Below, one piece after another: positions 18,768-45,232 of a stretch of DNA of 64,000 nucleotides (position 1 is its first letter; the number at the start of each line of letters is the position of its first letter). Source of the DNA: Spirochaetota bacterium (GTDB taxonomy: Bacteria; Spirochaetota; UBA4802; JAFGDQ01); the NCBI GenBank assembly GCA_034190085.1, contig JAXHTS010000019.1:62001-126000 (forward strand), given 5' to 3'. The notes beneath the pieces were generated by a model. That model was not told where the DNA came from and did not search any database. It saw only the letters and a list, made by a program, of their open reading frames with translations. A program made the position numbers and the translations under genes.

Positions 18768-19534
18768 GTATTATATTTTCTGATCTTGATTTAGAGCAAT
18801 ATCTTCTTGGAGAATTAGCTGATGATATTTATAAACAAATTGAAAATGCGCTATTGCATGATAAGTCACTACAACAGAGAGTCGATTCCCTGAGGGAATC
18901 TGGAAAGCAAATATCAATGGACTATCCACTATATCCAAATGTAGCAATTATAAGAAATGCTTATGCAAAGCATTTAAAAGCAGGAAAATCGGTAAAAATC
19001 CTTTTTAAAAAAATTGCCCTATCTTTTGCCGGATCCATAGTTTTATTTTTACTAATTATGCCGGTAATTTATATATCAAATGATATTGGTGATTCTGAGC
19101 GATCAAAGGGAAATCCAGCACAGCTATTCATCTATAAAAAAACAGGTAATTCTGTACATAGATTAAAGGAAGGAGCAACGGCGCGAGAGAATGATATTTT
19201 ACAAATAGCGTTCATTTCTGAGAAGCAGCCATATGTGATGATAGTTTCAGTTGATGGGAATAATGCTGTAACATTGCACTTCCCCGATTCAGAAACCGGT
19301 TCATCTGGAGTAGTTCTACATAAAAAAATGGTTATACCAAATTCATATACCCTGGATCGTGCACCGTTATATGAAAAGTTTTTTATGATTACCTCATTAA
19401 ATAAATTTAATATTCCCGAGATGCTGAAATTTATAAAAAGAGAAATACAAAATAATCCTGAGAATCCGGTTTTGAACCTAAGAAATAACAAGAATTTTTC
19501 TATTAGTGTTTTTTTTCTTAATAAGGAAAAGTAA
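18764..19534 (+). CDS. Membrane-anchored anti-sigma-like protein with ActD/DUF4384-like sensor domain
   Basis: This is 256 residues in three parts. A cytoplasmic N-terminus (1-80, LEQYLLGELADD and LRESGKQISMDYP) looks like an anti-sigma factor lacking a zinc motif. One transmembrane helix spans about 86-106. A periplasmic domain covers about 118-225, with DILQIAF, VMIVSVDGNNAVTLHFP and TLDRAPLYEKFFMIT. From memory this layout matches myxobacterial ActD-like proteins, and the outer domain resembles DUF4384, which often accompanies caspase-like proteases. Its start overlaps the sigma gene by 4 bases, and the caspase gene begins 1 base after its stop, so all three should be made together. The function as anti-sigma and sensor is inferred. 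Confidence 0.72.
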   Translation: MSIIFSDLDLEQYLLGELADDIYKQIENALLHDKSLQQRVDSLRESGKQISMDYPLYPNVAIIRNAYAKHLKAGKSVKILFKKIALSFAGSIVLFLLIMPVIYISNDIGDSERSKGNPAQLFIYKKTGNSVHRLKEGATARENDILQIAFISEKQPYVMIVSVDGNNAVTLHFPDSETGSSGVVLHKKMVIPNSYTLDRAPLYEKFFMITSLNKFNIPEMLKFIKREIQNNPENPVLNLRNNKNFSISVFFLNKEK

Positions 19535-19535
19535 T

Positions 19536-21173
19536 ATGAAAATGCCTGTAGTGATTATATGTTTATGTATGATAATATCTGTCAGGGGGAGGGTACAAGC
19601 AGAGTATTTTACCAAAAAGAACGCTATTCGTCGCTTTACTATTGTAGTGGGTGCGAATAATGGCGGGCCCAATAGAGAGCTTTTGAAATATGCGGTTTCG
19701 GATGCCAGATCATTTCATTCTGTTATGCGAAAGATGGGCGGTGTTTTCTCTGCAGATAGTATACTGGTATTGAATCCTGATAAACGGAATTTTTATTCTG
19801 CGTTTCGCAGAATTTATCATGCCGTGAAACAGAAAAGGAAACAGTATCGAAAGACGGAACTTATATTTTATTATTCAGGCCATTCTGACGAAGAGGGTAT
19901 TCTTCTGGGCAGGGAAAAGGTTTATTATACAAATATTAAAGAGGCTCTTAAAAAAATTTCCGCTGATGTGCGAATCGCGATTCTTGATTCATGTTCATCA
20001 GGTGCCTTTACTAGAATAAAGGGAGGCAAAAAGGGCCTTCCATTCCTGATTGATTCAGCGTATGATATGCGCGGAGATGCTTTTATGACTTCCAGTTCTT
20101 CGGATGAGACCTCCCAGGAGTCAGATAGAATCAGGGGGTCATTTTTCACATATTATCTCATTATTGGGTTGCGGGGCGCGGCAGATGTAAGCCGGGATGA
20201 TCGTATAACGCTGAATGAGGCATATCAATATGCATATTCTGAGACTCTGAATAGAACCGAAAAGACAATGCGTGGGGCTCAGCATCCACATTACCATATT
20301 CAAATGACAGGAACCGGAGATGTGATACTGACAGATATCCGCAAAAGTACCACCCGGTTAGTCTTGGCAAAAGAGATAGACGGTAAATTTTTCATCCGGG
20401 ATGATAACAATAACCTTGTTGTTGAATTCAATAAACCGTATGGGGCCTCTACACAATTAGCCATGGCACAAGGGAATTACACAGTTATAAATGAAAATAG
20501 AGAATCAATTTCTCAGTCGCGGTTTAGATTGAATAATCGATCATCTTATATTCTCAAGCAATCTGATTTTTTACCAGTCAAAAGAGAGTATACAGAGGTG
20601 AGGGGGGCAAAGCCTAACCAGAACTTTCCTGAAAAGGTAGTGGATCCTTTTAAAATTGGGGGTTATGGCTCAATACTGATAAGATTTAACCGTATTGCTG
20701 AAACACGCTCCTCTCAGTATGGTATCCATGCGGGTGCAATATTGAACAATCGTTATATCGTTGGATTAGGTTGGTTTCGACTTAGTGCGCCAAGGGAACA
20801 AAAGGATATTGCTCATCAAGAATACAGTGCTGAGTATCCCTATGTTGATTTTCGCTATGGTGGTATCCTATTTGAATATGTTTATAAAAGAAAGGGTAGT
20901 TTTACAACTACAACCGCACTCTTAATCGGCAGAGGATCAATTGGTTTTACAGAAAATAAGGCATATGATAAATATGCAGAGGATGTGCATGGGATGAAGG
21001 GATTTACTGTAATTGAACCGGAAATAAAGTGTATTTGGAATGTTTCAAAATATATTGGGATTGGAACAAGCTTGTCTTATCGATATGTATCTCGATTAGA
21101 TAGTGAATATTTTAATCATACTGATTTACGAAGCCTGGCTGTTTCGATTTTTATAATAGGTGGGACTTTATAG
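19536..21173 (+). CDS. Exported caspase-like (peptidase C14) protease fused to a beta-barrel-like C-terminal domain
   Basis: This is 545 residues from ATG 19536, chosen because AAGGA lies 8 bases upstream and a signal peptide (MKMPVVIICLCMIIS) starts here; GTG 19506 lies inside the previous gene. The caspase fold runs from about 30 to 270. The catalytic dyad is intact, His116 in YYSGHSDE and Cys153 in LDSCSSGAF, with SQESDRIRGSFFTYYL and GAQHPHY further on. A linker domain (about 270-360) is followed by the barrel-like module (about 370-545) also found alone at 17504. The signal peptide predicts a periplasmic or outer-membrane location, unusual for a caspase. It follows the anti-sigma-like gene after one base. 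The natural target is unknown. Confidence 0.85.
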   Translation: MKMPVVIICLCMIISVRGRVQAEYFTKKNAIRRFTIVVGANNGGPNRELLKYAVSDARSFHSVMRKMGGVFSADSILVLNPDKRNFYSAFRRIYHAVKQKRKQYRKTELIFYYSGHSDEEGILLGREKVYYTNIKEALKKISADVRIAILDSCSSGAFTRIKGGKKGLPFLIDSAYDMRGDAFMTSSSSDETSQESDRIRGSFFTYYLIIGLRGAADVSRDDRITLNEAYQYAYSETLNRTEKTMRGAQHPHYHIQMTGTGDVILTDIRKSTTRLVLAKEIDGKFFIRDDNNNLVVEFNKPYGASTQLAMAQGNYTVINENRESISQSRFRLNNRSSYILKQSDFLPVKREYTEVRGAKPNQNFPEKVVDPFKIGGYGSILIRFNRIAETRSSQYGIHAGAILNNRYIVGLGWFRLSAPREQKDIAHQEYSAEYPYVDFRYGGILFEYVYKRKGSFTTTTALLIGRGSIGFTENKAYDKYAEDVHGMKGFTVIEPEIKCIWNVSKYIGIGTSLSYRYVSRLDSEYFNHTDLRSLAVSIFIIGGTL

Positions 21174-36676: not shown

Positions 36677-38002
36677 ATGAACAGAGCAGATATAAGTGAT
36701 GTAAAGTTTTTTACATGGATAATTGTATGTATCATTATGACTTTTGGATTTATGAATAACAGAATTTTATATGCTGATGGATTGGCTACAATTGATTATA
36801 ATTACATTAATGATCTAATTGGAGATAGAGCGACAGGTATGGGAGGTGCTTATACTGCTATCTCCGATGATCCCTCAGGGGCATATTATAATCCAGCAGG
36901 TCTAGTGTTTGCCTTTGATAATCAGATATCCCTTTCCGTCAATAGTTATAAAGAAAGAAATATTAAATTTGAGAAAGCTGTTGCTGATAAACCATATACT
37001 CAGGATATCTCTTCCTTCTACCCCAGCTTCTTTGGAATTGTGCAGTCGCTTGGATCTTTTAAACTTGCTGTTACTATAATAAATATGAATAATGAAATTC
37101 TTGATCAGGATGATTATTTTCCTGGTATATCCATTCAAGGATTTCCGGCAATGTCTAATATTAATTATAACCTTAATGACAATACCCTGCTTGGAGGTAT
37201 CAGCTTGGCTCATTTTATCAATGATAGCATATCAGTTGGCGTGACAGCTTATGGTTTAAGAAGACGTACTGAACAAATTTTAAATCAGTTAACAACTGTT
37301 GATGCTACAGATTCTAGCGGTAATCCAATAACATATTATCAGATTCTTAATAATTATATAACTGAAGTTATTTATGGCTCTGTTTTTGAATTTGGTATGC
37401 AATATATGCCAATGGACCGCCTCTGCTTTGGAAGTAGCGTTACTATGGGAGTCATTTTCAGCCATGACTATGAACAGCAATATTTTAAAAAAGATATTAA
37501 TGCTGATAGTTATTATGGGTATCCATATATATATATGACATGGTATGATGATAAAATTGATGTTGATCTGAATGATGATAAATTACCTATGGTAATTAGG
37601 GTCGGCACTGCATATTTCCCTACTAAAAGGATTACAATTTCAGCAGATATTATTGCCCATATTGGGAACAAATATTATCATAATAGCGTTAATGATACCT
37701 ATAATGGAGCAGTGGGTGTAGAATATTTTGTTACAAATTATCTACCTGTGCGATTAGGTTTTTTTACAAATTTTGCAAATACCCCTAAAATTAAGAATAA
37801 TATCACTGGTCAACCGATGCATGTAGATATGTATGGCTATTCTATGAGTTTGGGTTGGCAGACAAAGAGTTCATCAATTTCTCTTTCTGGATTCCTACAA
37901 ACTGGAACAGGCAAGGCACAAATTATTTCTGAAAGTTATGAGGTTCAAGATGCGAAGATATGGGCATACTCTATCTCCTTAACCGGATCAGCAAGATATT
38001 AG
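36677..38002 (+). CDS. PorV/UPF0164-type outer-membrane beta-barrel protein
   Basis: This is 441 residues with GAGGAG well placed before ATG 36677 and a hydrophobic export segment (residues 11-33, ending near ADGL). The hallmark RATGMGGAYTAISDDPSGAYYNPAGL (about 52-77) is the N-terminal signature of the FadL/PorV/UPF0164 outer-membrane family. The rest is a series of amphipathic strands rich in Tyr, Asn and Asp ending in an aromatic-rich tail (SARY). Members form transport or translocon-associated barrels. It is the last gene of the SH3-M48-PorV-like group. What it carries is not visible in the sequence. Confidence 0.8.
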   Translation: MNRADISDVKFFTWIIVCIIMTFGFMNNRILYADGLATIDYNYINDLIGDRATGMGGAYTAISDDPSGAYYNPAGLVFAFDNQISLSVNSYKERNIKFEKAVADKPYTQDISSFYPSFFGIVQSLGSFKLAVTIINMNNEILDQDDYFPGISIQGFPAMSNINYNLNDNTLLGGISLAHFINDSISVGVTAYGLRRRTEQILNQLTTVDATDSSGNPITYYQILNNYITEVIYGSVFEFGMQYMPMDRLCFGSSVTMGVIFSHDYEQQYFKKDINADSYYGYPYIYMTWYDDKIDVDLNDDKLPMVIRVGTAYFPTKRITISADIIAHIGNKYYHNSVNDTYNGAVGVEYFVTNYLPVRLGFFTNFANTPKIKNNITGQPMHVDMYGYSMSLGWQTKSSSISLSGFLQTGTGKAQIISESYEVQDAKIWAYSISLTGSARY

Positions 38003-38359
38003 AGAAAAGAATATCTTAATAAATTTACTGATAATTATGAGCAACATATATTTGTATTCTATACTGCATATAAAAGATCAAATAATCATCTCTTTCAATA
38101 GCAGGAGAACTTCTTCTGTGGCTCTTTGGTAATGCTGTATCAAAATATAATTGACTTTTCCCCCGAGTAAAATCAATCTTATCTACAATGAAGTGATTCT
38201 AAATGCTAAGAATAGCCTATGAGGAAATACCCACAAATTATTTATAGATCGATACCTATGCATTTTAGCTTTATTATGTGAAAAAGTCACTTTATCCTAG
38301 GTATTATGTATGTTGAAGAGATATACTTAGAAGGGTTATCTCATATTTTGGAGGAGTTC
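38003..38359. other. Gene-free region upstream of the selenoprotein gene
   Basis: These 357 AT-rich bases contain no supported gene. A longer frame from ATG 38306 leads into the selenoprotein gene, but the better start is ATG 38360. The promoter of that gene should lie here; none was clear enough to mark. Confidence 0.5.
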
Positions 38360-38881
38360 ATGACTACAATACAAAAGAGAACATTTTTATCTTTTACGGA
38401 TTTTATTCAGAGGTTTGGTCAAATTTTTAAAGGCCCGACATTTCTAATGACATTTATCAAGGTTGATAATCGGTTAAGAGAGAAGATATTATTAACCGTT
38501 TCAATCGCAAATAATTGTTACACCTGAATGAGCGCACATTCTACACTTGGAAAGTGGTATGGAATATCAGAAGAGGATATTGATAATCTCATATATTTAG
38601 ATCCTGATAAATTCAATTATCGAGAATGGCTTGTACTTAAATACGCACAGGATTGGACATTTCTTCAGGGAGAGGAACCTGTGGGTAATTACATGCAGGA
38701 TCTTAAAAAGCATTACAGCAGAAAGGAGTTATCATATACACTCAAACTCATGAAGGCTATGCTCTTTTCAAACTACCTGTTCAACCTTTTAAGAAAAAAG
38801 CTATGGAGATCTGATATCGAAGGGATTTGTGTGGGTGATTATTGTAGTATTAATCATAGCAATACTAGGAAGTTGAGCTGA
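38360..38881 (+). CDS. AhpD-like selenoprotein with CxxU redox motif (in-frame TGA = selenocysteine)
   Basis: One frame of 173 codons runs from ATG 38360 (GGAGG 5 bases before) through an in-frame TGA at 38525-38527 to the stop at 38881. The context around TGA is SIANNCYT, then TGA, then MSAHSTLG, so residue 56 is three after Cys53 and four before His60, exactly the second cysteine of the AhpD/carboxymuconolactone-decarboxylase CxxC...H motif. A hairpin fitting a bacterial SECIS follows (listed separately). Downstream the family continues normally (GISEEDIDNL and a helical bundle). AhpD-type proteins are thiol peroxidases or reductant proteins, and Sec at this position is known from computational surveys of AhpD-like families. 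A readthrough-free pair of short genes is the unlikely alternative. Confidence 0.85.
38525..38565 (+). promoter_or_regulatory. Bacterial SECIS-like hairpin directing selenocysteine at TGA 38525
   Basis: Directly behind the TGA (38525-38527), CACTT (38544-38548) pairs with AAGTG (38552-38556) across the three-base loop GGA. An outer helix ATTC (38538-38541)/GAAT (38562-38565) extends it through a few bulged bases. The loop starts 21 bases after the TGA and begins with G, which fits the usual bacterial pattern of a small G-containing apical loop roughly 16-37 bases from the codon. It would be bound by SelB, which is not in the window. Confidence 0.7.
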
Positions 38882-38888
38882 TTTAAAG

Positions 38889-41411
38889 TTATTTTATTAC
38901 TATTCTATATGGGAAGTAGTAGAGATAGGATTCATCATCAAATTGCAACCCCTCTATATTTTTCAAAACCGTACTTAAATGCTTTGGAAGTATCCTATCT
39001 TTCACTTTAAGACCAAGTAATTCCATCATTGCTACCTTTTTTCCTGGCAGATGCTTCACCCTATAGTTGCCTCGGATATTTACCAAGCTCTTTGCGTACT
39101 CTATAGAGGTAATAATGCCACCAAGACTATCGATTAGATCATTTGCGACTCCCTGATTTCCGCTAAAAACCCTTCCCTCAGCAACGTTTGGGATTAAATC
39201 ACTTCCAATTTTCCGCGATTGCATAACCTTTTGTGTGAATTGCTCATAAAAATAATCAACCCCTCTCTGTAAGACCTCGCGCTCTTTCTCGTTTAGACCC
39301 TTAGACTCTGAAAAGATATCAGCGAATTCGCTCATCTTAATTACTTCTTTGTTGATTCCGAGCTTTTTATACAAATCCTTTAATGATAACTTGCCTGAAA
39401 TCACACCAATAGAACCTGTAATAGTGCCCTTGCTCCCATATATTTTATCTCCGGTACAGGCTACATAATATCCACCTGATGCAGCGGTATTCCCAAAGGA
39501 AAATACAACCGGTTTTTTGTATCGTTTCTTCATGTTGATGAGATAATTCCACATAAGATCTGAGGCAACGGCAGAACCTCCACCTGAATTAATCCTAATA
39601 ATAACCGCCTTTATAGAATGATCCCCAAAGGCCTGTTCCAAGGCTTGTCTATAGGTTTCATCACCAATTACATTCACTGGAATACCTGAGGTTCTGGCTT
39701 TTCCTCTTATTATTGAACCTGAAACATGGATTATTGCTATTCCAGGTATCCTTCCCCATTGGTAATTTCTCTTCTCCTCAAGCAAATATTTTTCCAAACT
39801 GACTATTGAGGCAATTAATGAATATCTTTTAAGTATACTCATCTCTGCATCACTCGGATAGGCTATAACATCAATAAATCCTGCTCTTTTTGCCTCTTCG
39901 GGAGACATTATCCCCTTATCAAAGAGTGCCTCAATTCTTTCTCTGGATATTCCTCTATCTTTTACTATATCTATAAGATAGGTTTCGTTTAAATCCTTTA
40001 GAAGTGAAACAATATTTTCTCTATATTCCTCGGACATTTTATTTCTTGTAAATGGTTCATTGAAGGATTTATACTTTCCTCGTTTAACTGATTCAAATTT
40101 AATTCCTACTTTTTCAAGCAGATCCTTGAAGAAATAGACTTCAGCATTTAAGCCTGTTAGAGAGAAGGAGTTGCTTGGAGTAAAATATATCTTTTGAGAT
40201 GCTGATGCTAAGTAATATTCCTTATTCCCTGATGTTGTGAGAACCGCAAAGACCCTTTTCCCGCTGACAGAAAAATTTTTCAACTCATCTCTAAGTTCCT
40301 GTATCTGGGCAAATCCTAAAGCGGCTTTGTCTATTTTCAGGATTATACCGATAATGCCATCATCCTCTCTTGCATTTTTTATGGAATTTATAATGTCATA
40401 GAAGGTTGGTTTATTTTTTCTAAAGAAGCTTTCAGCCTCTATCTCATTGATATCGTCCCTTAAGGATATGCCCAAAAGTCTTTTCGTCTCAAGAATTGGC
40501 GTACTATGCTTTTCTCCGGATATAGAGACACCAAAGGTTGAATAATTTTTTGCATCCTCCTTGTGATGTGAACCATACAGGTCAAGGATTATAGAAGAGC
40601 CTCGCATACCAAGAGGCATGGTTAATCCGAAGTTAATATTTTTATCTTTATCAGAACTTGCAAATATTGCGATATCATGCAGGAGTCGTAAGTCTGCAGA
40701 AACTGTAATATCAGATTTTTTGAATTTTTCTCCGGCTAATCTATGCGCGTCAAGTGAAATAGCAACATTTTCATATAAGGGTTTAATGGATATTGAATAG
40801 ACTTCACTTCGATTTATGGTATCCTCCGTTATCCTGGGTTTGTTCAGGTCTCTGGTCACATATCCAAGTGATAGGTATCTGAAGGGTCTGAATAAAAGTC
40901 CCAAGGATAGGGATTTATAGTCATCATATTCGTTATTTATGCTTTTTGTGAAGGAATAGTCCAAACCAAAACCAATAAAATTGTTATAGAAGAAGCCCTT
41001 TGATATTTTGAAGAATTTTGTTTTGATGGATTCTATACTTTTAAACCTTTCATCATATAGGTCGTTTAACCATATATACGAAAAGGAAAATCCCGCAATA
41101 TTTAGTATAAATAGGTGATTGCTTACCCTCTTGTCATTATAATTAAATAATCTGTATGCTAAAGATGTGGCTGAGGAGATATCTGAGAATGTGGGATTTA
41201 TAAGCGGAGCAAAGGAGTCATGTGTATGGCTTATGGAACGATCGGGTAGGGGTAATTTAATGGGATTTTCAATCTCAGCAAAAACAGTGAAAATAAAAAT
41301 ATCTAAGATTATGAGAAAAATAATAGAGCAAACAATTAATAATTTGGATAGAAGCAGACATTTAGAGAATCTCAACACCGATAAGTGTAATGTCGTCTTG
41401 AATTGACTCAT
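38889..41411 (-). CDS. sppA: Signal peptide peptidase SppA (67K type) with barrel-like N-terminal extension
   Basis: This is 840 residues. A hydrophobic anchor (about 21-45) is followed by some 260 residues of amphipathic strands like a beta-barrel or exported scaffold (YLSLGYVTRD, FGLDYSF). Then come two S49 domains (about 305-560 and 575-800). The lysine of the catalytic dyad lies in GKYKSFNEPF (445-454) and the serine is Ser645 in NTAASGGYY, as in tetrameric Gram-negative SppA. SppA cuts signal peptides left in the membrane. Its N-terminus overlaps the end of the SpoIIE gene by 50 bases, so the true start may be a little downstream. The barrel-like extension is unusual for E. coli-type SppA. 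Confidence 0.83.
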   Translation of the reverse strand: MSQFKTTLHLSVLRFSKCLLLSKLLIVCSIIFLIILDIFIFTVFAEIENPIKLPLPDRSISHTHDSFAPLINPTFSDISSATSLAYRLFNYNDKRVSNHLFILNIAGFSFSYIWLNDLYDERFKSIESIKTKFFKISKGFFYNNFIGFGLDYSFTKSINNEYDDYKSLSLGLLFRPFRYLSLGYVTRDLNKPRITEDTINRSEVYSISIKPLYENVAISLDAHRLAGEKFKKSDITVSADLRLLHDIAIFASSDKDKNINFGLTMPLGMRGSSIILDLYGSHHKEDAKNYSTFGVSISGEKHSTPILETKRLLGISLRDDINEIEAESFFRKNKPTFYDIINSIKNAREDDGIIGIILKIDKAALGFAQIQELRDELKNFSVSGKRVFAVLTTSGNKEYYLASASQKIYFTPSNSFSLTGLNAEVYFFKDLLEKVGIKFESVKRGKYKSFNEPFTRNKMSEEYRENIVSLLKDLNETYLIDIVKDRGISRERIEALFDKGIMSPEEAKRAGFIDVIAYPSDAEMSILKRYSLIASIVSLEKYLLEEKRNYQWGRIPGIAIIHVSGSIIRGKARTSGIPVNVIGDETYRQALEQAFGDHSIKAVIIRINSGGGSAVASDLMWNYLINMKKRYKKPVVFSFGNTAASGGYYVACTGDKIYGSKGTITGSIGVISGKLSLKDLYKKLGINKEVIKMSEFADIFSESKGLNEKEREVLQRGVDYFYEQFTQKVMQSRKIGSDLIPNVAEGRVFSGNQGVANDLIDSLGGIITSIEYAKSLVNIRGNYRVKHLPGKKVAMMELLGLKVKDRILPKHLSTVLKNIEGLQFDDESYLYYFPYRIVIK

Positions 41412-43761
41412 GTAGTTTGTTTTTGTTTATGTGTTCGATGATTGAATTCAATTTTCCTTCGACATCAACCTCAATGTTTTGAGAGATTGTGTCAAGAAGG
41501 TTTTCCTCTATAAATGCCTTATTTGTTTCATCATTATGGATTTCTACTATGCCGTCAGTATATAAAATTAGCTGGTCATTTTTCTTTAGGGTATATCTGT
41601 ATGAAGGATATTCTGTATCTGGATCAGCGCCAAGTATCTTTGCTCTACCTGGAAGGAATAACAGGTTCTTATTATCATTTCTAATAATAATTGGAGCCAG
41701 ATGACCAGCATTGATGTAGGATAGAATTCTCGTCTTCTTATTAAATATTCCAATAAATAGAGTGATCAATTCAATGCCTTTATACCTTGATATTAGATAG
41801 TGATTCATCTCCTTAACAGTATTCTCAATAGATTTTTTATCCTTTAACATGACATGAGCGATGATGCTTATTACTGAGAGGGTCATTGCCGCCTTAAGTC
41901 CATGTCCTGAAACATCTCCTATAATAATAGCAGTCCTATCGTTATCTATATTAATAAAATCAAAGTAATCACCCATAACCTTAAAATAGGGTCTGTTGTA
42001 GAAGCTGATATTCAATCCTCTTCTTTCCGGAGCCTTTTTGGGAAATAATCTAAGTTGAATGTATGAAGCAACATCCAGTTCTTCTTCATATCTTTTTTTA
42101 TCAATATAGTCCTGTAGCAGAATGTCATTCTCTATTAATTGATATAGCTGGCTAGCTGCTGTCTGTAAGTAATTCATCTCATCGTTTGAATAAAGATCCT
42201 CGTTTCCCTTCTGTCCAATTAGCAATGCTGCCTTTACATCCTCTTCCCTGAAGATTGGCATTGCTAAATAGATGTTTCTCTCTTCAAGGAATTTACAAAT
42301 ACTATCTTCAAGCATGTAATTATTCATCAATGAATTTTGTATAATTGTAGCCCTATTCCTTTTAAAAAATTTTAACAAGTTCGAATCCTTTGATAAATTC
42401 TCAACATATCCATTCAGATTTTCGTATGAATTGTACATTGAATCATCAAATAATACTAATATCATAAATGATGTATTGATTAGACCGATTATCTCAGAAA
42501 AAATTTCTTCCATAACAATAGCGATATAATTCTGATTTGAGAGATGCTCAGGCGAGGTCACCCTTTCCGCAATTTTCTGCAATGAATAAACAAATTCTCC
42601 CCTTTTTCTAAATCCTATGTTATTTACACTTATTCCTATAAGTCGCTTTGCATCAAGAAGAAAGAGTAGAAATAATACTAAAATAGTATAGTAGATAATC
42701 ATGTGAAAGGTCGAAGTATCTAATTGAGAAATATAATAAAGATTTGTTGAACCAATTATTGCTAGTAAGCAGTTCACTATGAATGTCAAGACGTTAGTTT
42801 TGTGAAAGGAATTGAAATTATGGTATGTGTATTGAAGCAATCCATTCCCAACTAATAGTGGAATTGCAAGAGTAAAGCTTGCAAAAAGAATTATAGAAAT
42901 ATATAAATCAAAATATATTAATAAGAAAAAGCAAATAATGGGTATAATGGTTCCAACTAGTATGCCTATTGCAACTGTTACAGTAACCTTGATCATATAT
43001 TTATTTCTTTCTTTTATTGTAGCGTAACAGATGTTCCCAATCAAGAATAATGAGCAGAGAAATAAAAACATTAGTAGATGAGGATAGGGTAATAATCGAT
43101 CAGGATCCTGTAGTCTATAGATTGAAGATATTACTATAAATATTGCATATCCTATTAATGATAATGTCGCATAACGGATGGCTTCCTTGTTCAAAATGCG
43201 ATATCCAGTATGAATGCTGCTATAACCAAGCATTATAATTATTGCTAGCCATATCATTTGTGCATTATTAGAAAAAATATGCTCAAAAAGTAAAAAGTAG
43301 AAAAGACCAATCAATAATGTTAAGTTAAAATAGATTTTTGCTTGAAACAAATCAGGATTAATTATTTTAATAATATAACCCCATACATAGTGAATGTTTG
43401 CGAAAAGAATCATGAATAGCATAAGCCATAATAAATCATAGTTGATGCCTCTATTGGGTATCTTCTTCTGGATCAGTGCCCCATTCTGTTTAATTACTAT
43501 CTCCAATTCTTTTAAATCTTTGTATCTGGTCAGCAGTTTAATAAGGTTCGATTTGGTTACAGGCTCTCCCTCAATTTTTACAATCCTACTCTTATATTTG
43601 ATAATGTCCTCCACTGAGGAGGTATTGTAAAAGAATGTATTTCCTACAATTATTCTTTTAAAAGGATAAATTTTTGATAGTTGCACTGCTCTATTTATAA
43701 AAAAGATATTTAATGCTATTAGAAATAAAAGCAGGCTCAGATTTATAATTTTTTTAATCAA
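41362..43761 (-). CDS. SpoIIE/RsbU-type PP2C phosphatase with membrane and GAF-like domains
   Basis: This is about 799 residues from TTG 43761, which has GAGGAG 5 bases upstream and overlaps the stop of the upstream gene by only 8 bases; a longer start at 43815 would overlap it by 62. An N-terminal helix and a short PDZ-like segment (VVKIEGEPVTKSNL) are followed by seven or more membrane helices and a GAF-like region (about 410-550). The C-terminal PP2C domain (about 560-795) has its metal sites VMGDYFDF and IIGDVSGHGLKAAM and a C-terminal LYTDGIVE. Such proteins dephosphorylate anti-sigma-factor antagonists. It is likely in an operon with the paralogue upstream. Confidence 0.83.
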   Translation of the reverse strand: MIKKIINLSLLLFLIALNIFFINRAVQLSKIYPFKRIIVGNTFFYNTSSVEDIIKYKSRIVKIEGEPVTKSNLIKLLTRYKDLKELEIVIKQNGALIQKKIPNRGINYDLLWLMLFMILFANIHYVWGYIIKIINPDLFQAKIYFNLTLLIGLFYFLLFEHIFSNNAQMIWLAIIIMLGYSSIHTGYRILNKEAIRYATLSLIGYAIFIVISSIYRLQDPDRLLPYPHLLMFLFLCSLFLIGNICYATIKERNKYMIKVTVTVAIGILVGTIIPIICFFLLIYFDLYISIILFASFTLAIPLLVGNGLLQYTYHNFNSFHKTNVLTFIVNCLLAIIGSTNLYYISQLDTSTFHMIIYYTILVLFLLFLLDAKRLIGISVNNIGFRKRGEFVYSLQKIAERVTSPEHLSNQNYIAIVMEEIFSEIIGLINTSFMILVLFDDSMYNSYENLNGYVENLSKDSNLLKFFKRNRATIIQNSLMNNYMLEDSICKFLEERNIYLAMPIFREEDVKAALLIGQKGNEDLYSNDEMNYLQTAASQLYQLIENDILLQDYIDKKRYEEELDVASYIQLRLFPKKAPERRGLNISFYNRPYFKVMGDYFDFINIDNDRTAIIIGDVSGHGLKAAMTLSVISIIAHVMLKDKKSIENTVKEMNHYLISRYKGIELITLFIGIFNKKTRILSYINAGHLAPIIIRNDNKNLLFLPGRAKILGADPDTEYPSYRYTLKKNDQLILYTDGIVEIHNDETNKAFIEENLLDTISQNIEVDVEGKLNSIIEHINKNKLHESIQDDITLIGVEIL

Positions 43762-45232
43762 GACACTCCTCAAACCTAATGAGTATAAGAAGTTTATCCA
43801 TCTCTTCGTTATCATCTTTATTTGTTTTTAGGATGCTCTTTATTAAGATCGATTTAATCTCATTTAAAGAAGCCTGATAATTATTGTATAAAATGCTTGA
43901 GTACTTAGAAATATCATCATTTATAATTTTATAAAAGATCTCGCAGGTTATGATTACGATTTCACCTGATCGAATTGTAATGGTATTGTCTTTACTCTTC
44001 CCATTCTTCTTTAATGATTGGATGTCCTTTGAGTTTTTATTAAATAACATGGGCGTGGTATATCTGTTATTAAAATAAACGAATTTTCCATTTTGATTCA
44101 AGGATGAGTGAAATATCATTAGGTCGTTATCTAAGAGATTTTTATCCTTGATCATTTTTTTTAATTGTAACACCGCCTTCGATGGCTTAAAGCCTAATCT
44201 GGCATAACTCTGATTAGCTGCCTGTATACCGGGCATGAGAACTGAGGTGCCCTTAATATTCTCGCGAATCCTGAATGTCGATATCCTTACTTCATCCTTT
44301 ATCTTGTCATTAGTGAATACGTCATAATATTCCTTTGTAGTTAGGGAGGTGGTTTTATGATAGACTATGATTGAAATTCTACCAACCTGAATGTTCGGAT
44401 TAGGGAATATTTTTTTCTGGATTTTTGAAGCTAATTCATATTCCTTCTCCAATTCCTTCTTTTCAAGGAAATGTAGGAAAAAGAAGCTGTTTACTGATAG
44501 AATTGCAATCTTGGAAGCAAATATTTTAAGAAGCCTCTCCTCTCCCTTTTCACTTATACCAGTTACTGAGGGAATCGGAAACCAATTGATAATTCTCATG
44601 AATATAATCTCAATTTTCGAATACTTCCTTTTCCTGTCACCAATTACAATAATACCAAGAAATGTCTCTTGATAATAGATAGGCACAATGAGTTCGCCAT
44701 TAAATTTTTCAATTTCATTGATAACAGCTTTTAGGAAGGGGACTGATGGATCCAGCTTACTCTTAATAATTATATCATCAGGTCCATTAATGAGTTTATA
44801 TAATATATTATTTAATTCAATTTTTGCCCCTCTGATAATTCTTCTCTTTTTGTTTTTATGATAAAAGATGTCAAATTTATCGCTCTTCTGGTTGTAAAAT
44901 ACTATTAAACCCATCCTGGCATTGATCAGTTCAAGAATTTGATTAAATGTTGATCTTAACATTTCATCAAAGAATTCAACATTTAAAATTGAATCAACCG
45001 TTTGGACATATAGATCCTCAAATTTGATAGGGATTATAACTGATCCTATCGTTTCATGTATAAAACTCAATAATGGGAGAGAGCCAATAATAATAATAAA
45101 AAAATATGCAACAAAATATATGCCACCCAGCCCTATATTTGACAGAGATATTGCTATGAATACTAATATTAATATAAATAATAGGTCGAAGCTATAAGCT
45201 AAAAGAAGATATACAATTCTATTCTTTAACAT
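43754..45232 (-). CDS. GAF-domain protein with degenerate (likely inactive) SpoIIE phosphatase domain
   Basis: This is 492 residues. Two membrane helices (about 8-60) are followed by a GAF-like domain (about 85-250) and the helix ELASKIQKKIFP that normally introduces a PP2C domain. The next domain retains the size and fold pattern but has lost the metal-binding motifs: where a VGGDYYD site is expected it has TTKEYYDVF, and where GDVSGKG is expected it has RIRENIKGTSVLM. A late IRSGEIVIITCEI strand corresponds to the conserved LYTDGV region without the aspartate. It is therefore probably a pseudophosphatase that senses or titrates a partner. It directly precedes, with an 8-base overlap, the active paralogue. 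Confidence 0.68.
   Translation of the reverse strand: MLKNRIVYLLLAYSFDLLFILILVFIAISLSNIGLGGIYFVAYFFIIIIGSLPLLSFIHETIGSVIIPIKFEDLYVQTVDSILNVEFFDEMLRSTFNQILELINARMGLIVFYNQKSDKFDIFYHKNKKRRIIRGAKIELNNILYKLINGPDDIIIKSKLDPSVPFLKAVINEIEKFNGELIVPIYYQETFLGIIVIGDRKRKYSKIEIIFMRIINWFPIPSVTGISEKGEERLLKIFASKIAILSVNSFFFLHFLEKKELEKEYELASKIQKKIFPNPNIQVGRISIIVYHKTTSLTTKEYYDVFTNDKIKDEVRISTFRIRENIKGTSVLMPGIQAANQSYARLGFKPSKAVLQLKKMIKDKNLLDNDLMIFHSSLNQNGKFVYFNNRYTTPMLFNKNSKDIQSLKKNGKSKDNTITIRSGEIVIITCEIFYKIINDDISKYSSILYNNYQASLNEIKSILIKSILKTNKDDNEEMDKLLILIRFEECLD

Follow-up and report, generated by a model that had tools for sequence, protein, structure and literature searches.

An AhpD-like gene with an in-frame UGA predicted to encode selenocysteine represents a subfamily in one order of the Spirochaetota

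The gene at positions 38360-38881 on the plus strand of the window (the whole 64,000-nt stretch of Spirochaetota DNA analysed here) is, with a probability that we put at about 95%, a genuine single-domain gene of the AhpD/CMD family whose UGA at 38525 would be decoded as selenocysteine (Sec) by way of SelB, tRNA-Sec, and a downstream hairpin. Its single frame starts at ATG 38360, is preceded on the same strand by a Shine-Dalgarno-like GGAGGAG (38350-38356, recognised by reading the sequence), holds TGA 38525-38527 as its sole internal stop, and terminates at TGA 38879-38881. ATG 38528 follows the internal TGA directly and the frame has no gap; both the sequence and the read-through translation bore out the original prediction that two abutting frames join in phase at this codon. 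Translation with TGA read as U yields a protein of 173 aa including Sec56, in which the stretch ...ANNCYT-U-MSAHSTLG... carries the motif C53-x-x-U56-x3-H60, with Cys53 and His60 placed around codon 56 as had been proposed.

The joined read-through protein matched the Pfam CMD family (PF02627) at a modest 27.3 bits (cut-off, 23), and neither half of the frame matched any Pfam family on its own. In a six-frame search of the genome, the CMD score of the same stretch was 22.1 bits, slightly below that cut-off. The ahpD_dom profile was matched by all 16 members of the family described below, with E values of up to 0.01, and a single-sequence AlphaFold model of the window protein had an unusably low pLDDT of 36. 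Since neither half has a Pfam match, standard annotation does not see the gene and would ordinarily split it into two meaningless pieces; the subfamily has likely been missed in public annotations.

A search covering 198 relatives revealed 15 orthologues, which together with the window gene form a family set of 16. Each orthologue contains a single in-frame TGA, and all of them come from other families of the same order, with 28-52% identity to the window protein. The TGA occupies one alignment column in all 16 genes and is followed by 103-118 codons. The columns that are invariant in the 16-row alignment include G25, R40, E41, K42, N51, C53, U56, and H60, and further downstream E89, W90, K129, F136, and N138, among others. 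In close pairs, the dN/dS ratios downstream of the TGA were about 0.15-0.33, near the upstream values, indicating purifying selection on both sides.

When the 16-row profile was run against 393 genomes of the phylum, the same 16 genes were recovered at 219-262 bits, after which the scores fell to 68 bits. Among the matches listed at or below 68 bits, none has an internal stop, and those inspected are CxxC proteins. A Cys version of the subfamily was not found in these 393 sampled genomes, only remote CxxC homologues, in which a Cys is aligned with the Sec56 position; the alignment proposed as a check on this position thus returned Cys in the remote homologues and the Sec TGA in all 16 genes of the set. 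In a tree of 27 proteins, a single branch separates the Sec genes from the Cys genes (93/100). Members of the subfamily occur in four or more families, all within one order; neither of the two sampled relatives in the host's own family has the gene, and 30 of 46 genomes in the order lack it.

Within the gene tree, one gene from family f4 (L035) groups with sequences from family f7, other f4 and f7 genes being placed elsewhere (genes concerned: L035 with L034, L036, and L037; L023 and L025). This position suggests that the gene was transferred, that it stems from an old duplication, or that binning went wrong. An unrelated ATPase-like gene (L021), encountered in the scan of genome contigs, was rejected as a chance match through FTDFIQRF. 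A scan of viral contigs with the family alignment gave no match, and a scan of plasmids gave remote CMD proteins only.

These comparisons bear on the possibility that a premature stop has left an AhpD pseudogene in decay, or that two distinct small genes lie side by side. The lack of a Pfam match for either half, the ATG immediately after the TGA, and the patchy distribution of the gene in the order would all fit such an origin. However, the TGA column is kept in 16 of 16 genes down to 28% identity, with neither TAA nor TAG there in any of them, and selection is purifying on both sides of it. The codon after the TGA is ATG in only 10 of the 16 genes and GTA, ATC, or ATT in the rest, which speaks against a separate start. 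Together with the Cys of the remote homologues at this position, the invariant TGA upholds the original view that the gene has not decayed, and the conservation of the TGA across species excludes decay, sequencing error, and a pair of separate genes, to which we would assign a practically negligible probability. A somewhat less remote but still very improbable alternative is that UGA is read in another way, being reassigned to Trp or Gly or passed by leaky read-through, since the frames would be open under any reading of TGA. Against this, TGA serves as the ordinary stop of the AhpD-like gene itself and of other large frames in the window, the internal codon is aligned with the catalytic Cys of the homologues and not with Trp or Gly, and the genome carries SelA, SelB, and a true tRNA-Sec with a UCA anticodon.

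Selenocysteine decoding by this organism, which had been predicted from the window alone, is supported by the gene content of the host genome (G000; 4.27 Mb, 96% complete), in which selA, selB, selD, and tRNA-Sec(UCA) are all present. The genes for tRNA-Sec (C50:24823, 70 bits; anticodon TCA according to ARAGORN), selA (C50:24946, 495 bits), and selB (C50:26325, 313 bits) are clustered on a single strand of one contig. selD (C49:117329-118249, corresponding to L018:1501-2460; 380 bits) is itself a Sec gene, with an in-frame TGA in GAGUAAK, the motif of the known Sec form; this TGA is followed by a strong 9-bp hairpin with the loop GGA, identical to the loop of the window gene. Across the order, tRNA-Sec was found in 15 of 16 carriers of the AhpD-like gene vs. 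24 of 30 non-carriers (p = 0.22), a comparison that is uninformative because tRNA-Sec is present in nearly the whole order; the sole carrier without it is represented by a genome that is 69% complete.

The original prediction had also described a SECIS-like hairpin downstream of the TGA, here placed at 38540-38563 (plus strand). The stem CACTT/AAGTG (5 bp; 38544-38548 and 38552-38556), the apical loop GGA (38549-38551), which begins after 21 nt from the TGA, and a possible outer helix UCUA/UGGA (38540-38543 and 38560-38563; pairing judged by inspection) are all present. On its own, however, the structure is weaker evidence than was implied: an equally good bSECIS-like hairpin follows 7.8% of the 2786 TGA triplets in the window, and shuffling of synonymous codons in the window gene gave p = 0.26. 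Its local energy is -3.0 kcal/mol (z = -1.2), which falls short of the -7.5 kcal/mol that the published bSECIS model requires, and the MFE of the 57-nt segment at the TGA (-8.7) is formed by pairs other than the SECIS-like stem.

Across the family, the hairpin was more stable than the mean of the gene's own synonymous shuffles in 16 of 16 genes (Stouffer, -4.5). This excess was limited to segments starting no more than two codons from the TGA (-3.5 to -4.6); elsewhere along the genes, one weaker value of -2.6 was obtained at 42 codons upstream and the rest did not go beyond -1.5. The published loop rule was applied with its minimum spacing relaxed from 16 to 14 nt and without the energy limit. 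The window hairpin conforms to it (loop GGA, 5 bp, 21 nt), and a hairpin of at least 4 bp with a G[G/U] loop lies in range in 15 of the 16 genes, the combined p of about 1.5e-8 coming from related sequences and being indicative only. The RNAalifold consensus over the 16 hairpins was poor (three pairs) because the hairpin occupies several registers, and a fixed helix of six pairs (69.8% paired; covariation 3/500) received moderate support. In L026, a gene of family f5, the loop is GGUC within GCAGGUCUGC, the core sequence of the SECIS in E. coli fdhF. The predicted hairpin of the window gene is by itself no better than chance; the family-wide excess at the TGA is convincing.

Glu41 (GAG, 38480-38482), Cys53 (TGT, 38516-38518), which opens the CxxU motif, Sec56 (TGA, 38525-38527), and His60 (CAT, 38537-38539), all read on the plus strand, are invariant in the 16 proteins and spaced at -12, 0, +3, and +7 relative to the Cys. 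This is the relay spacing of AhpD, Glu-12-Cys-x-x-Cys-x3-His, as in PA0269 and AhpD of M. tuberculosis (PMC3141380), and a Glu at equal spacing was present in the 11 Cys homologues checked. The fifth relay residue, at the second x of the CxxC motif, is His or Tyr in AhpD and Thr in the window protein (Thr, Gly, or Ala in the family); it is not absolutely conserved in AhpD (PMC3141380). One possible reading is that a selenol, with its lower pKa, might need less activation, given the missing relay His/Tyr. At the other end of the protein, a short polar C-terminal tail carries Cys157 and Cys162 (38828-38845, plus strand), and at least one tail Cys is found in all 16 Sec proteins; the tails of the Cys homologues are mostly longer and hydrophobic, without Cys. 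The tail Cys is a plausible third redox residue.

Descriptions of AhpD-like selenoproteins with CxxU go back to 2005 (PMC1088965, PMC2398784, PMC1794560; relisted in PMC13188914). AhpD-like 1 (COG2128), AhpD-like 2 (Pfam CMD), and "hypothetical protein 1" of marine metagenomes (PMC1088965, PMC2398784) belong to the AhpD/CMD family, as does the window protein, and in the marine CMD-domain selenoproteins, as in the window gene, Sec takes the second position of the CxxC motif and the SECIS lies directly downstream. The marine AhpD-like families, compared here by their descriptions, have abundant Cys homologues within their own data set (902 and 207, GOS table), whereas the window subfamily has no close ones in the sampled phylum. 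A conserved tail Cys is a further feature of the window subfamily. Among NCBIfam models, the best match was the AhpD-like NF053654 (GroundWater_YciW, YciW-related (seleno)protein), at 26.6 bits against a cut-off of 310, so that the window protein is not a member. NF041047 (GSU3128 (seleno)protein, a "distant AhpD homolog" with CxxU from Geobacter) shares the AhpD core with CxxU and scored 17.9 bits (cut-off, 110; the profile is only 84 long), and TIGR01926 scored 15.7 bits, below its cut-off of 81.8. Since no cut-off of an NCBIfam (seleno)protein model was reached, the window protein appears to belong to a separate subfamily, although of a known kind.

In the PDB profile comparison, the window protein matched best to the AhpD-like PA0269 of Pseudomonas aeruginosa (2O4D/2IJC), whose relay residues Glu36, Cys48, Cys51, and His55 have the same spacing as Glu41, Cys53, Sec56, and His60. 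PA0269 and AhpD of M. tuberculosis differ in having Cys in place of Sec, Tyr50 or His132 where the window family has Thr, Gly, or Ala, and other tails. CxxU selenoproteins of the AhpD type being already known, what is new here, as judged from sequence comparison, is the subfamily, and its unusual points would be the tail Cys and the fact that the sampled phylum yielded no close Cys forms. The subfamily looks Sec-only, which is unusual since bacterial selenoproteins mostly have commoner Cys forms.

No CMD-family match other than the AhpD-like gene was found in the genome. A search of the same genome for AhpC/TSA proteins gave four matches, two of which are Sec proteins: a peroxiredoxin with TFVU, in which Sec stands at the peroxidatic Cys (L097; C5:28034-28624), and a peroxiredoxin-like protein with NWUPFC (L098; C37:6066-6530). 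In both genes, the TGA is followed by a hairpin with an AGUU loop. Sec orthologues of the TFVU peroxiredoxin (74-82% identical, TGA inside) occur in 23 other genomes of the order; the NWUPFC protein has a single distant relative with TGA. The TFVU peroxiredoxin was found in 12 of 16 carriers of the AhpD-like gene vs. 12 of 29 non-carriers (p = 0.03); since this value is weak and uncorrected for kinship, it can at most hint at a functional link between the AhpD-like protein and the Sec peroxiredoxin.

The neighbourhood of the AhpD-like gene was unconserved across the orthologues, apart from a SppA gene and a phosphatase gene in family f5, and therefore provides no operon evidence for a partner. 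In the window, the minus strand at 38889-43815 encodes a signal peptide peptidase of the SppA type, with a SpoIIE/RsbU-like phosphatase of 817 aa upstream of it; this order beside the AhpD-like gene is repeated in L054, and both genes are nearby in L057 and L058. On the plus strand, the window also encodes a protein with weak similarity to the PorV/PorQ family (36677-38002; 44 of 90 bits) and one with a weak match to the caspase-like EACC1-associated domain (19506-21173; 59.5 of 140 bits).

Because the AhpD relay residues are conserved and the genome encodes Sec peroxiredoxins, we infer that the protein may have a role in peroxide or thiol redox work. Sec56, paired with Cys53 and activated by Glu41 and His60, would alternate between the reduced CxxU state and a selenenylsulfide, and the protein would pass electrons to peroxiredoxins or reduce peroxide as they do; the tail Cys may undergo exchange with the active site or carry electrons to it. 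A selenoprotein that is no peroxidase adaptor and whose substrate is a different thiol, disulfide, or electrophile, turned over by disulfide exchange, dehalogenation-like, or CMD-like chemistry, is a serious competitor, to which we would give somewhat less than an even chance. The functions of the CMD superfamily are diverse, with the debrominase Bmp8 among the weaker solved relatives of the window protein; there is no conserved operon with ahpC, the relay His/Tyr is missing, and the short polar tail with Cys replaces the hydrophobic tail of most Cys homologues. The E-C-U-H spacing, however, equals that of AhpD, the closest relatives of known structure are of the AhpD type, and the same genome encodes Sec peroxiredoxins, in keeping with a peroxidase adaptor. 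A bolder and rather unlikely proposal is that the subfamily is a Sec-obligate form of AhpD with no surviving Cys members, that the conserved tail Cys is a third redox residue completing a Cys-Sec-Cys relay, and that the protein serves specifically to reduce the Sec peroxiredoxins of the order; if this is true, the peroxide pathway would be selenium-based on both sides. The AhpD-like protein and the Sec peroxiredoxins together suggest that the peroxide handling of this organism leans on selenium.
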